Shown piece after piece: positions 37,580 to 43,639 of a DNA stretch of 64,000 bases; position 1 is the stretch's first letter, and every line of letters begins with the position of its first letter. Made by a program: the position numbers and the translations under genes. Source of the DNA: Rhizoclosmatium globosum (lineage: Eukaryota; Chytridiomycota; Chytridiomycetes; Chytridiales; Chytriomycetaceae); NCBI GenBank assembly GCA_002104985.1, contig MCGO01000032.1, positions 310,001-374,000 on the forward strand, written 5' to 3'. The notes beneath the pieces were generated by a model that saw only the letters and a list, made by a program, of their open reading frames with translations, was not told where the DNA came from and searched no databases.

Positions 37580-39959
37580 CTACTCCTTCATTTCTGCATC
37601 ACGCAACAATGTCAAGTTTTCTCTGAACTGAATACGTTGCTCGATAGTCTGGAATGTAAACTTTCCAAGTCTCAACAAAAGCAATCCATTTCCGTCAACG
37701 TTATTATCTGAAGAAACACATCAAGACGAGGCCAAAACAAAAAAGTTTTCACCTTTAATGTATTGCAGAACCTCAGAAGCCCCCTCTTGTGACAACACCC
37801 AATGTTCGACTTGTTCTGCAGTCCAGTCGCGTAAATTTTGTGGCAAGGATTCCTCATCTCTTCCTCCAAGACAATCAAACTCTTCGTCTTCCTCTTCGTC
37901 GTAATCGTCAACATCCGCAATATCATCAATCCAACGAACAGGTCGCTATAATTATTCATCAGTATTGTGTTATAAATCCACACATAGCATCAGCACTCAA
38001 CACCAAAAAAAACTAACCTTCCTCTTTCTTGTTTTCGACTTTTCCAAGTCTTCACTGTCCTCATAATAATCGTCATAGTCCTCATCTTCAGAATAAATCA
38101 TGTCTTCTTCTTCTGATTCTTCTTCGTTTTCATCCCTAAGGTCCAAATCGATATCTTCATCATTCTCGTTGTATAATTCGATTTCTTGTGGATTTCCATC
38201 TTCTTGAATGAACTCATTATTCATGACCTGTTGTGGCATTGATTCATCATTTGGAGCGACAGATCCTAATTTTGGAAGCTGTGAAAGAGTATCGCTGATC
38301 ATTTGCAATTCATCCTCAATCTCCTCATCAGTTTCACTAGAATAAGCTACCGTTGGCTGTGAAACTAAATCAGGCCGCTTGATTGTTGGTTTCATTCGGC
38401 TTGGTTGTTGTTGATGTTGTTGATAATATTCTGGCTGCGTTTGCAAATCAGTATCCACCTTGAATTCATCCCTGGACTCCTTCTTCCAATCTGAAAGCCA
38501 CTCAGGCAACAGGCGTTGTAATTTTTTGAACAGACTCGGATAATAGCTTTCAAGGTTTTCAGGTTGATCTCCTGGCGACATTTGGGTTTCCGAAAAATGA
38601 AGCTCACTATGTTTCACTGATTGATTTTGATTCAGATTGCCTTTACCAAATTTAGTACTAAAATTGATAGCGAGCTGGCCGGATACGGCATCCATAATTG
38701 GTGCTGCTTTTTCCAAGTTTTTGGTCACTGTTACGTCAGCCCTCTTTGTTACATGGAACACATCCCCCATTTCGTATTTCACAACTCCCAAGAAGGCCTT
38801 TTCTGCTGAGAATGCCAGTTGCGATCTATCAAATACCTCAACTTGTACAACAGATTCGTTTGATAAATCCCTGAATGAAATACGAATTGCATCAATTTTT
38901 CTTATTTTCAAATGTTGTAAGATTTTTACTTACGCAAAGAATGATTCGTTCCAGAAAGGTTTTGTAGTGTTTTTGAGAGTCTTTGTCTCGTACTTTTTAT
39001 CACCGTCAATGCTGAAGGGACTTAGCGAACGAAATAGTCTTAAACTTACTCACGATATGATACAAAAAGGTTCAGGGTACGCTAAAAAGGTGTCAGTTTC
39101 GCAATACATCCTTTATACTAGTTGCAACCTACCAAACCAATGACGTTTGACCAATCCGTCCGCTGCAACAACTTCAAATCCACATTTTGTTTAAGAAATT
39201 AGTTGAATTTGATAATATTGTATCTTACTTGTCATACGAACTGCAGCTGAATCGTTTGAGTGCAAAGTGAAAGCCGGAGACGAAGCGTATTGAACAGTTT
39301 CCGTCTGTTTGCCGTATTCGATACCTTTTAGCTCCTTATTGGCAGCAATTTGCTTAACGACCATCAACGAGACAGGAGCGGCGACACTTCGTGGAAGTGC
39401 AATTGTTGGAGCATATCCCAACGCTTGATAAATCTCTTTCAACAAAGATATTTTCAGGTCTCCTTTCTTGACTTCGTCATCTAAACAGTCAGAAAAGTCG
39501 TAGTAGAGACTGGTACCGACAATGAAGCGGGTAATTGGAAATGGGCCCTTATCTAGACGAATTGGGATCAATTGCTTCTCTTCGTCCCATGAAAAGTTAA
39601 GTTCCCGCTGGCAATTTTTTGATTTCTATTGGTGGAGTAGTGAGCGAGGTTGTTGTCATAATTGGTTTGTTGCTGAACCTCGTAATCTTTGGACATATGG
39701 ACCAGGATCAGCTTCGACTGAGTGATCCCTTCGACCATCCGTTTTACAATGTCTCCGCTCATTTGATGGTCGTCGCGCCAAAGACGGAGGCCGTGAGCGG
39801 TGAGGAAGTTAGCTATCTCAACCACTGTTTCCTTTTGAGCCCAACTACGCAAGAGAAGTTAAAACAGAGATCAAAGAAAAGCAATGATTCGGGTTACCTA
39901 TATGATACCATTGCATGGTAGCTGTAGCCATCAGGAAGAGGGACTTGCGAAAACGTCAT
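37580..39959 (-). CDS. TIR-C2-SAM multidomain protein, copy 1 (acidic linker)
   Basis: Starts MTFSQVPLPDGYSYHAM at 39959, then an intron and the TIR domain (VSYSWAQKETVVEIANFL, LRLWRDDHQMSGDIV, QSKLILVHMSKDYE). A further intron leads to KSKNCQRELNFSWDEEKQLIPI, where the Glu (39602-39604) aligns with the catalytic Glu of NAD-cleaving TIRs. Next is a C2 domain (IVAADGLVKRHWFG to VQVEVFDRSQLAF, FLGVVKYEMGDVF). A long acidic linker (EEDMIYSEDEDYDDYYED) ends in KSKTRKRK. The C-terminal SAM domain has RDWTAEQVEHWVLSQEGASE and DGNGLLLLRLGKFTF. Likely a cytoplasmic signalling or cell-death type protein. NADase activity is inferred, not shown. Confidence 0.75.
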
Positions 39960-40196
39960 TATTCTGACCTTATTCGTCGTATTTTTTTAGTAATTTTTGT
40001 GATGAATCTTCCATTCGAAACGGTGTAGCTAGGTCCACGTATAGTCGCTAATAATAAATATACTTGATGGGAACATCTGTCAAACTTCACTAATACCAGA
40101 AAACAATTGAAATATTTGTTGACATTCCTCGACACTTAGGCATGGCTGAATCAACAAATGAACGAATTTTATTGACATATTCACTTAAGGCTGAAA
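39960..40196. other. Upstream region of TIR gene copy 1
   Basis: This holds the promoter side of copy 1. It is AT-rich and carries no gene. Confidence 0.4.
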
Positions 40197-40670
40197 AATC
40201 TACACCCCGCGCTACGTAAACTCTCCAATGCCTCTCTGAACTGCCGAGATTTTTGAATAGACGAGAATGCGATCATTCCCAGTCGTAATTCATCAATCCA
40301 GAGCCGTCAATTTGGTTTTCTGTGCAACACATCTGTTAGTCACTGTTTCCACGAAATAGAATTCTACATACTTCGAACATAATCAAGAACTTCGGCAGAC
40401 CCATCTTGCGACGATACCCACGTTTCTATTTCTGAAGCGGTCCAATCGCGCGGATCACGTTGGGGCTCTTCTGAGGAGTCTGTCTTGTCTTCAAACAAGC
40501 TTTCTCCAGGCTGTGATGAACCAAAGAGACTATTTGATGGTGGCGGTACAGTAAACGCGCTTCGACTAGATTGAGAGGATCCAAAGAGACTTGTTGATTG
40601 TGCAGATGACCCAAACGTGCTTCCAGTTGCTTGCGCTGGACCGAAAAGACTTGTCGAAGATGTAGCTGAT
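40197..40670 (-). pseudogene. Truncated duplicate of the 3' end of TIR-C2-SAM copy 2
   Basis: Near-identical to about 40842-41320. It includes the SAM exon, the preceding intron (the shared TTAGTCACTGTTTCCACG stretch is unchanged), and the last FG-type repeats (LFGSSQPGESLFEDKTDSSE-like). It lacks TIR and C2. Similarity stops at 40671, where a 21-bp repeat begins. Conservation of intron sequence shows the duplication is recent. There is no start of its own, so it is treated as a gene fragment. Confidence 0.75.
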
Positions 40671-40691
40671 GTCGCGAATAATACACGTGAT
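40671..40691. repeat. 21-bp dispersed direct repeat, copy 2
   Basis: Identical to 37501-37521. It marks exactly the point at which the duplicated SAM/FG fragment loses similarity to its parent gene, which suggests a recombination junction or the end of an inserted piece. Confidence 0.8.
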
Positions 40692-40808
40692 AAAAGCTCA
40701 TTTTATGTTTATGTTTTAAGCGAACGTTCAGAAATATGAGATGTGCATCCAAACCGAAAACCTGGAAACTAGAGTTAGCTAAACACAAACCCATATGTGT
40801 CATATTAT

Positions 40809-42020
40809 TCAGTTTATTTTTTTTGTGACTTTCTTGACAGTAACCCCCACGTTACGTAAACTTTCCAATGCCTCTCTGAACTGCAGACGCTTCTCAATAG
40901 ACGAGAATGAGATCCTTCCTAGCCGCAATTCCATCAATTCAGAGCCGTCAATTTGGTTTTCTGTGCAACACATCTGTTAGTCACTGTTTCCACGAAATAG
41001 AATACTACATACTTCGAACATAGTCAAGAACTTCGCCAGACCCTTCTTGCGACAACACCCACTTTTCTACTTCTGGAGCGGTCCAATCGCGCGGATCACG
41101 GCGGGGCTCTTCTGAGGAGTCTGTCTTGTCTTCAAGCAAGCTTTCTCCAGGCTGTGATGAACCAAAGAGACTATTTGATGGTGGTGGTACAGTAAATGCA
41201 CTTCCACTAGGTTGAGAAGATCCAAAGAGGCCTGTTGATTGTGCAGATGATCCGATCGTGCTTCCAGTTGCTTGTGCTGATCCAAAAAGACTTGTCGAAT
41301 GCGTAGCTGATCCAGAAGCGCCTACAGCTGGTGCTGATGAGCCAAAGAGACCAGTTGGTGGAGAAGATGCTCCAAACCCGCCACCACTTGGAAGCGGTGA
41401 ACCAAATGCGCTTGCACCTGCTTGTGTGGCTCCAAAGAGGCCAACTGAAGGTGTAGTTGCTCCAGAAGCGCCTACAGTTGGTACTGATGAGCCAAGGAGA
41501 CCAGTCGATGGAGAAGATGCTCCAAACGTGCTTGCACTTGCTCGTCGTGCAGATCCAAACAGATTCTGAATCAATCCACTTGGAGAGACGCGCTTCTTTC
41601 TTCTAGAAACCCCTGCTTCTGCGGAAGGAATATCCAATGCGGCTGGTACAACTTCTTCTTCCATTTCTTCTTGTTCTTCTTCTTCTTCCGAGTCTTCTTG
41701 CGTGACAATAATTGGTGTGATTGGAGACATGATGGGAGCTGGACGTGGTTCAAATGTCTGCTGAACGTTTTCCAGAGCTTCCCCACGGATCAAAAGTTTT
41801 GCAATATTGTCGGACATGATTTTTGATACTTCATCAATTTCATCCTTCTTATTGTTTGGCTGGAATTGCTGCTGTTGTTGTGGCTGTTGCTGTTGTAGCT
41901 GCAGTAGCCGCTGCTGTTGAAGTAGTTGAAGCTGTTGCTGTTGCTGATACTGTGGCGATTGCTGCTGCAACTGTTGTAACTGCTGTTGTTGTAATTGTTG
42001 TAACTGTTGTTGTTGTTGTT

Positions 42021-42085
<65 letters not shown>

Positions 42086-43639
42086 GATATTGCAACTGTT
42101 GCTGTTGCTGTTTGCCGCCAATAAGCACAATCTCCGGAGAAGCATCAACCGATACAGTTGCTTCTTTCTTTTCATCCGAGAACCAACCCGTGAACGCCTG
42201 TTGAATTCTTGCGAATACTCCCGGTGGCGGCGACTCTTCAACAACTGGTGGCTTTTGCACTACAGAGCCAGGTGAAATCCTCGATAGAGATTCTTCGGCA
42301 CCAGAAACCCTCCGAAATTTCGTGCTGAAACTCACAGCAAGTTTTCCAGAAACTTCATCCATGATTGGAGCTGCCTTCTCCAGTGGTTTTGTAACAATTT
42401 CGTCGCCTCCAGTCCCAACGTCAAACACATCCCCCATTTGATATTTCACGAGACCAAGGAATGCTTTGTCTGTTGAGATTGAGAGTTGAGACTTGTCAAA
42501 GACTTCGACTTGGATGGAGGATTCGTTGGAAAGATTGCTGGACGGGGGATTATATCAGAATGGACGTAGCAGTGGAGGGGCAAAGCTGAACTTACGTGTA
42601 GAAAGATTCGTTCCAGTATGGTTTCACTGTGTTCTTGCGGGATGTGGTTTCGTGTTTTTTCTGGCCATCGACGCTGTTGAAAAGAAAAACTGGCTCAAAA
42701 AAGCGATGGGAGGTACTTACGATACAACACAATATGGTTCGGGGTAGCCTGATTGACAGTTAGTCACATGAAAACATGGAATATAGGCTCATAAGTTTAC
42801 TCACCAAACCATTGACGTTTGACAAGTCCATCGGCGGCGAGAACTAAATAATGAGTCAGTAAAAACGAATAGATAATACGATCCTTACTTGACATTCTGA
42901 CTGCAACAGGTCCTTAGAATTCAAACTTGTGGAGGTTAAAATCGGAGTGGACGACATTGGAGCAGACGCCATTGGAGCATCGACATCAAAGTCCTTTGGT
43001 ACTTTCTGAGCGAACGAATTCACAACCATGAGAGATTTAGGAACAGCCACGTGCTTTGGAAGTGGAACTGATGGAGTGAATTCCAAGACACGATAAATCT
43101 CCTGTAGCAGCGACATTTTGAGGTCTGCTTTCTTGGCTTCGTTGTTCAAGTGGTCAGAGAAGTCGTAGTAGAGACTAGTTCCGACAATGAATCTTGTTAC
43201 TGGATATGGACCTTTGTCAAGACGAATTGGGATCAAAGGCTTCTCTTCGTCCCAAGAGAAAGTGAGTTCTCTCTGGCAGTTTTTTGATTTCTGTGAATTG
43301 GAGGGCAAGGTGGTAGTTGGAGTTAGAGCGGACTGTGATCATTTGGTGAGTGATCCACCCAACCTCATAGTCTTTGGACATGTTGACCAGTATCAGCTTC
43401 GATTTGGTGATTCCTTCCACCATTCGAAGTACAATATCGCCGGTCATTTCATGGTCATCTCGCCAAAGACGGAGGCCATGATCAGAGAGGAAGTTGGCAA
43501 TCTCAACGACAATATCCTTCTGTGCCCAGCTGTACCATAGCATTAGTGCTTGAGCAAAGAAGAAACCAAGTAATTGTACCTGTAGGACATCATGGCATGG
43601 TAGCTGTACCCTTCTGGGCAGGGGAACTTGGTTATTCAT
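40809..43639 (-). CDS. TIR-C2-SAM multidomain protein, copy 2 (poly-Q / FG linker)
   Basis: Paralogue of the gene at 37580. Introns lie at 43530-43578 and 43291-43363. TIR: YSYHAMMSYSWAQKDIVVEI, LRLWRDDHEMTGDIV, SKLILVNMSKDYE, KSKNCQRELTFSWDEEKPL with the candidate catalytic Glu at 43267-43269. C2: ILAADGLVKRQWFGYPEPYC, KPYWNESFYT, SIQVEVFDKSQLS, FLGLVKYQMGDVF. Then a linker with IQQAFTGWFSDEKKE, a long poly-Gln tract, RRKKRVSPSGLIQNLFGSAR and about ten FG-type repeats. SAM: DPRDWTAPEVEKWVLSQEGS and IDGSELMELRLGRISFSSIE, stop at 40809. One-base frame breaks near 43610, 42905 and 42018 lie in homopolymer or repeat runs. The neighbour's ATG is only 19 bp away. Confidence 0.77.
41145..41560 (-). 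repeat. FG-type peptide repeats in the linker of TIR-C2-SAM copy 2
   Basis: A coding tandem repeat of about 36-39 nt, degenerate, with peptide units of the kind GLFGSSxPxxGASG. LFG or GFG cores recur about ten times. The composition (Gly, Ser, Ala, Thr, with spaced Phe) is that of FG nucleoporins, which form dynamic cohesive phases. Confidence 0.75.
42002..42090 (-). repeat. (CAA)n poly-Gln tract
   Basis: An almost pure CAA repeat on the minus strand (TTG on plus), about 28 units, interrupted by one TTTT near 42018 where the frame switches from Gln to Asn codons. This interruption may be a real indel or a slippage or assembly error. Flanking CAG/CAA mixtures extend the Gln-rich region on both sides. 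Confidence 0.8.

Follow-up and report, generated by a model that had tools for sequence, protein, structure and literature searches.

SARM1 and tir-1 hydrolyse nicotinamide adenine dinucleotide (NAD+) and have the domain order ARM-SAM-SAM-TIR, while Rsp5, NEDD4 and SMURF share the order C2-WW-HECT. We describe two neighbouring genes, A and B, of the chytrid Rhizoclosmatium globosum (Chytridiales) in which an N-terminal TIR domain is followed by a C2 domain, a linker and one C-terminal SAM domain. They lie in a 64,000-nucleotide stretch, hereafter the window (G000:C246:310001-374000), of a 56.9-Mb assembly in 420 contigs (G000). Like SARM1 and tir-1, they combine TIR with SAM and keep a glutamate in the TIR, and a profile of their SAMs reaches both proteins. 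Unlike them, they have the reversed order, an added C2 and an asparagine for the tryptophan of the WxxxE motif, and no ARM repeats were found in gene B (Pfam, E up to 1). The TIR-SAM-SAM-SAM protein of Rhizoclosmatium has a similar N-terminus, 59% identity over the aligned TIR stretch and C-terminal SAMs, but it has three of these and no C2 match. The C2 domains of A and B resemble those of Rsp5, NEDD4 and SMURF in sequence, fold and intron map, whereas the window genes have neither WW nor HECT (none in gene B, Pfam, E up to 1).

Papers are cited here by PMC number, and statements about them, absences included, refer to the portions available to us. TIRs have been reported in NLRs of Chytridiomycota (PMC9815663); these are also fungal TIR proteins and occur in the same genome, but they carry NACHT with ankyrin or WD40 repeats, neither of which is in A or B (no NACHT or NB-ARC in gene B or the gene A pieces, Pfam, E up to 1). 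The amoeba TirBCD proteins and the 2026 TIR atlas are comparable in that eukaryotic TIRs come with their own regulatory parts, whereas no fungal TIR architecture is described there; the atlas contains almost no fungal TIRs, the few being from R. globosum only, and mentions that very few had been reported earlier, with none listed by InterPro for the clan (PMC13142454). In earlier surveys, PF01582 proteins were not found in fungi as of 2010 (PMC2939053), nor NLRs in chytrids as of 2014, when C2 was noted as the N-terminal domain of a few basidiomycete NLRs (PMC4986451). R. globosum is listed as one of the early-diverging fungi in which transferred genes are numerous (PMC11291939). The literature matches listed, with subscription papers mostly outside them, give TIR-SAM and SAM-TIR and contain no description of a TIR joined to C2 in a fungus, in line with the novelty proposed in the initial annotation. 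As far as this literature extends, TIR-C2-SAM is a new domain combination, with a function that we can only predict.

Genes A and B

Gene B joins TIR, C2, an acidic linker and SAM in one gene. It has nine exons and eight GT-AG introns of 42-72 bp, and its frame is intact (Table 1). The possibility that TIR, C2 and SAM belong to separate genes is rejected for gene B by this continuous model; for gene A, a protein of R. hyalinum settles the TIR-C2 join only. The R. hyalinum ortholog of gene B (P0001) is identical at 597/599 residues. Among seven window open reading frames searched against Pfam, three matched and four did not. TIR_2 exceeds its curated cut-off in both genes (67.9 and 68.5 bits against 28), as does C2 (residues 205-294 in B), so that these two calls of the initial annotation were borne out by profiles.

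The SAM domain was examined with a profile (A4) built from five SAMs, one each from A and B and three from the TIR-SAM-SAM-SAM protein (P0002, HDU99_003349). This profile matched 26 PDB sequences at E <= 0.01 (best 1.8e-7), including Polyhomeotic, ETV6, C. elegans tir-1 (9e-4) and SARM1 (2e-3); judging by their names, we take all 26 to be SAM proteins or SAM fusions. In a single comparison, the gene B SAM and the third SAM of P0002 are identical at 26/73 positions (E 2e-14).

Gene A keeps the TIR, C2 and SAM exons in the order of gene B. Its frame is broken near 43.61, 42.91 and 42.02 kb, with GT-AG introns within each piece. The deposited R. globosum model of gene A (P0042, BCR33DRAFT_345373), to which the TIR piece is identical over 187 residues, is TIR-only and leaves the C2 frame. 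In contrast, the R. hyalinum ortholog of gene A (P0041), which matches the gene A pieces at 182/185 and 121/123 residues, reads from TIR into C2 in one frame; thus, the TIR-C2 break is not general. No relative was found that spans the break at the glutamine tract, so C2-to-SAM continuity in gene A is putative. The tandem TIR-C2-linker-SAM pair first proposed therefore stands in full for gene B and in domain order for gene A, but not for an unbroken gene A frame as far as SAM. The breaks are equally possibly sequencing errors or recent damage. No second allele of gene A was found in G000, where the other matches lie only in gene B.

The two genes diverged under purifying selection. They share 130/190 residues in the TIR part (C2 and SAM figures in Table 1). 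As averages for the pair since duplication, the synonymous rate (dS) is 1.56 and the ratio of nonsynonymous to synonymous rates (dN/dS) 0.14 for TIR, against 1.16 and 0.30 for SAM; for C2, the proportion of nonsynonymous differences (pN) is 0.17 and dS is saturated. A stretch after C2 is also common to both (score 61; 0/500 shuffles reach it, maximum 47). Alternatively, gene A might be a dying pseudogene, with gene B alone at work. The three frame breaks, the truncated deposited model and a partial copy of the gene A 3' end alongside (93% identity over 300 nt and 84% over 87 nt, between A and B) agree with this idea, but gene A retains its domain exons and those splice sites on which the pieces rely, the ortholog is in frame from TIR to C2, selection has been purifying, and sequencing errors would account for the breaks equally well. 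We consider decay of gene A unlikely, though far from negligible.

Table 1. Features of the locus, in window coordinates
Feature	Position	Strand	Evidence or remark
Gene B, TIR-C2-linker-SAM, 647 residues	37580..39959	-	Splice model without frame break
Gene B exons 1-5	39959-39898, 39844-39679, 39625-39229, 39171-39133, 39081-39054	-	Splice model
Gene B exons 6-9	39011-38934, 38870-38018, 37945-37753, 37707-37580	-	Splice model
Gene B TIR, exons 1-3 (Pfam residues 17-122), Glu 84 in NCQREL	39229..39959	-	TIR_2 E 1.5e-18
Gene B C2, ~residues 203-331, Rsp5/NEDD4 type, 4 introns	38648..39247	-	C2 E 2e-14; SMURF1 PDB match 3.6e-10; intron map
Gene B acidic linker, 29% D/E; C2-adjoining stretch common to gene A	37844..38647	-	
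Gene B SAM, ~residues 576-642	37598..37843	-	Five-SAM profile against PDB; match to P0002 third SAM
Gene A, same domain order, three frame breaks in assembly	~40809..43639 (ends approximate)	-	Window sequence; P0041, P0042
Gene A TIR, exons 43608-43580, 43529-43364, 43290-42910	42910..43608	-	TIR_2 E 9.6e-19; 187/187 to P0042
Gene A C2 exons	42315..42910	-	C2 E 8.6e-17; 89/128 to gene B
Gene A linker: B-shared stretch after C2, glutamine tract, SNARE-like helix, FG repeats	41098..42314	-	
Gene A SAM (extent of matches)	40848..41097	-	37/63 identical to gene B SAM
Fragment: second copy of gene A 3' end (SAM and part of linker)	40205..40590	-	Nucleotide identity; SAM match
Two pieces of NOT3/NOT5-type gene, adjoining gene B	35.4-37.3 kb		Pfam
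GH20 hydrolase	46.9 kb		Pfam

The linkers have features of their own. In gene A, a helix at ~41844-41763 (-) resembles the first half of an R-SNARE motif (Synaptobrevin, 24.4 bits against a cut-off of 26.4, E 2.5e-5). After the glutamine tract, nine FG dipeptides stand in GLFG-like repeats at ~41575-41140 (-), and these resemble FG nucleoporins (E 7.8e-6, below cut-off). The gene B linker contains an acidic helix with a high moment. As for gene models, the deposited P0001 lacks the N-terminus of B and P0042 lacks the C2 and SAM of A; domain surveys based on such incomplete models can thus miss the TIR-C2-SAM architecture. A 21-bp sequence (40671-40691), about 80 bp beyond the copy of the gene A 3' end, recurs about 60 bp past gene B. 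It was rejected as a mobile element, having just two genome copies (<=1 mismatch), both at this locus.

Origin and possible role of the C2 domain

A protein search, in which the best 7,999 candidates by shared words were scored, gave 40 matches at E <= 0.001: two are TIR proteins, and the other 38/38 carry C2, WW and HECT. The best PDB sequence matches are SMURF1 and SMURF2, and the SMURF1 C2 also ranks first in Foldseek for the modelled domain (predicted local distance difference test, pLDDT, 59-88 over the C2 block). R. globosum has its own Rsp5-type gene (L015; WW E 1.2e-25, HECT E 1.3e-19). Numbered as (codon,phase) from the AADGL motif, the C2 introns (-2,1), (11,1), (20,2) and (46,2) are equal in A, B and L015, the three genes compared; the first of them was initially set from its acceptor in L015, and its donor was then read. 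Four introns equal in position and phase are the pattern that capture of genomic exons would leave, and we infer that the C2 was captured in this form from an Rsp5-type gene. The exon before the first C2 intron ends in VRIT in L015, VRMT in B and VRMS in A, and by this resemblance the copied piece may reach into that exon.

The donor is less clear. By alignment score, the L015 C2 is the best match of A and of B after each other. By identity, other C2s surpass it, at 60/123 (P0025, P0007) against 56/120 for A and at 53/123 (P0016) against 49/120 for B. Since score and identity disagree, the donor lineage cannot be named from sequence alone, and the C2 tree (41 rows), being unrooted, gives no date for the capture. 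To look for a bacterial or viral source, genome contigs (29 and 7 pattern matches) and viral contigs (39 and 72 pattern matches) were scanned; tblastn, whose reach here is close relatives only, found no relative among them, so a bacterial origin is still possible.

Two acidic positions, which we take to belong to C2 loop 1, hold H and E (gene B) or Q and E (gene A), whereas 6/6 aligned Rsp5 rows have D at both; L015 has E and D. With these changes and the Rsp5-type kinship, a generic Ca2+-binding C2 is not favoured; this check covered loop 1. The Ca2+ control suggested in the initial annotation accordingly lost ground, while the membrane role gained from the Rsp5 type of the domain, the Rsp5 C2 having been reported to bind phosphoinositides (Dunn 2004, as cited in PMC2171029). 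The Nedd4L C2 also keeps its HECT inactive (PMC11612235), and by analogy the C2 of A and B could restrain the TIR.

In plant NLRs, integrated domains act as decoys. On this pattern, the C2 could mimic the host Rsp5, and when a virus or parasite hijacked Rsp5-type ligases, it would touch and trigger the TIR protein. The introns shared with the host Rsp5-type gene and the many TIR genes of the genome are consistent with such a decoy, as is the engagement of Nedd4-type ligases by viral PPxY motifs (PMC2958808). Against it, no trigger is known, the C2 gives no sign of fast evolution (two sequences only), and WW domains were not found in A or B, whereas it is WW domains that PPxY motifs bind. We regard the decoy as improbable. 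The same low standing applies to its extended form, in which the protein would be a guard with an integrated Rsp5-C2 decoy, placed at the point of parasite or viral attack on trafficking and connected through SAM to a network of TIR NADases spanning the chytrid genome.

The TIR domain and its proposed action

As first noted, the glutamate of the NCQREL motif is present in the TIRs of A and B. It aligns with that of Cat1 (E 9.5e-4), the best PDB match, and also in PdTIR (E 0.028) and TLR2 (E 0.07), neither of which is significant alone. It is invariant in the four aligned rows (A, B, the B ortholog and P0002). PADLOC gave weak TIR matches only and NCBIfam none.

Our best explanation is that an old tandem duplication of a chytrid TIR effector gave rise to A and B, a pair tethered by C2, assembled by SAM and signalling by TIR assembly; taken as a whole, we hold it to be about evenly balanced between right and wrong. 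The C2 would anchor the protein to membranes that bear phosphoinositides, probably independently of Ca2+, and the C-terminal SAM, related to polymerising SAMs, would concentrate TIRs at the membrane, as might the glutamine/FG linker of gene A. TIR-TIR assembly would switch on signalling, most likely NAD+ cleavage, with plain ADP-ribose and nicotinamide favoured as products because the WxxxE tryptophan is absent; this tryptophan is tied to cyclic ADP-ribose products, not to all cleavage (PMC11374754). Alternatively, the output could be recruitment of the other TIR proteins of the genome. The purpose may be self-defence or cell-death control. The logic would be as in SARM1 and plant TIR assemblies, which oligomerise and then signal, with a membrane module in place of the ARM sensor. 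In SARM1, SAM oligomerisation serves TIR activity, the ring being needed for action; TIR-SAM fusions are active in plants, and two plant TIR-SAM fusions gave no cell death, their protein being undetectable (PMC8635717, PMC10242710).

Several points weigh against this explanation. The activity, lipid binding and assembly of A and B are predictions from sequence, and gene A is frame-broken in this assembly. The gene B SAM falls below the Pfam cut-off, with SAM_PNT at E 0.13 in the whole protein and 17.4 bits against 24 for the SAM alone; this part of the initial domain calls was recovered by the five-SAM profile and not by Pfam. The lipid-binding discriminant is at most 0.8 in the linker windows listed, below the threshold in usual use. 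In yeast, deletion of the Rsp5 C2 left the sorting of one cargo unaffected (PMC2171029), so that the part of the C2 can be small. The two AlphaFold models have block pLDDT of 29-63 and 29-64 over residues 1-110 and are too poor over the TIR to say anything reliable on an NAD pocket. More than 70% of TIRs overall have the alpha-C glutamate, and its presence need not go with activity (PMC7075850). The WxxxE tryptophan is Asn in A and B and in 15/16 genomic loci with a motif match, the other having Ala, some of these loci being near-duplicates. This search took in 20 fetched loci (four without a match) and allowed N/W/A/F/Y at the Trp position; it required the Glu and thus says nothing on Glu conservation. 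The glutamate itself was confirmed, while the Glu-based case for the NAD+ cleavage that the initial annotation called plausible in A and B is weak.

The same residues bear on a second reading, in which the TIR is a non-enzymatic scaffold and TIR plus SAM assembly recruits the TIR-SAM-SAM-SAM and TIR-NACHT paralogs on C2-marked membranes. The widespread glutamate, which also aligns in TLR2 (E 0.07), and the missing tryptophan would suit a scaffold, and the amoeba TirB and TirD showed no processing of NAD+, TirD being toxic independently of the homologous Glu (PMC13142454). However, the glutamate is invariant in the four aligned rows, and Cat1 is described as cleaving NAD+ (PMC12162218). The scaffold appears to us possible but doubtful, and clearly less probable than the C2-tethered, SAM-assembled effector pair.

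TIR genes of Rhizoclosmatium

Three protein searches, which need shared five-residue words and a length window and can miss distant relatives, returned four TIR-bearing proteins: P0001, P0002, P0041 and P0042. The three SAM stretches of P0002 match the gene B SAM, and one of them has SAM_1 over the Pfam cut-off. R. globosum has copies of this TIR-SAM-SAM-SAM gene on contigs C381, C268 and C108 of G000. Introns were checked in the C381 and C268 copies: the first lies at the codon and phase of gene B in both, and the second, by eye, is also as in gene B in the C381 copy. Clusters of matches to the SAMs of A, B and the TIR-SAM-SAM-SAM protein were seen at G000:C212:182000-203000 and C27:51000-119000, where no TIR_2 match reached the threshold.

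Genome-wide, 92 exon-level TIR_2 matches at E <= 0.001 (101 scored) lie on 58 contigs; merging neighbours within 3 kb reduces them to 81 places. The number of TIR genes is lower than the match count, because some contigs appear to duplicate one another. Twenty stretches were fetched, and ten open reading frames from six of them were run on Pfam. In four of the six loci (L056, L057, L058 and L059), NACHT with ankyrin (two) or WD40 (two) repeats lies beside the TIR exons on the same strand, as in NLR-type genes, here in a chytrid; these are exon-level calls, with no joined gene model built. One further locus has a TIR without another Pfam call. L052 has TIR and then a Sel1 repeat in one frame, Sel1 being below the Pfam cut-off. 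In L040 (G000:C201:154000-163999), a long helical N-terminus, ARM/HEAT-like by eye and without a Pfam call, precedes TIRs; downstream lie another TIR and a stretch resembling a coiled coil.

R. globosum strain JEL800 is available in culture, its synchronous life cycle takes 20 h and its RNA has been sequenced (PMC12659703), which makes it possible to test whether TIR signalling serves cell death in fungi. Animals, plants and prokaryotes are known to have TIR immunity; R. globosum has a TIR gene set unexpectedly large for a fungus, in which TIRs with their own C2 and SAM stand beside TIR-NACHT genes. The introns shared with the Rsp5-type gene record a way in which a housekeeping gene may supply a membrane module to an immune-type gene.

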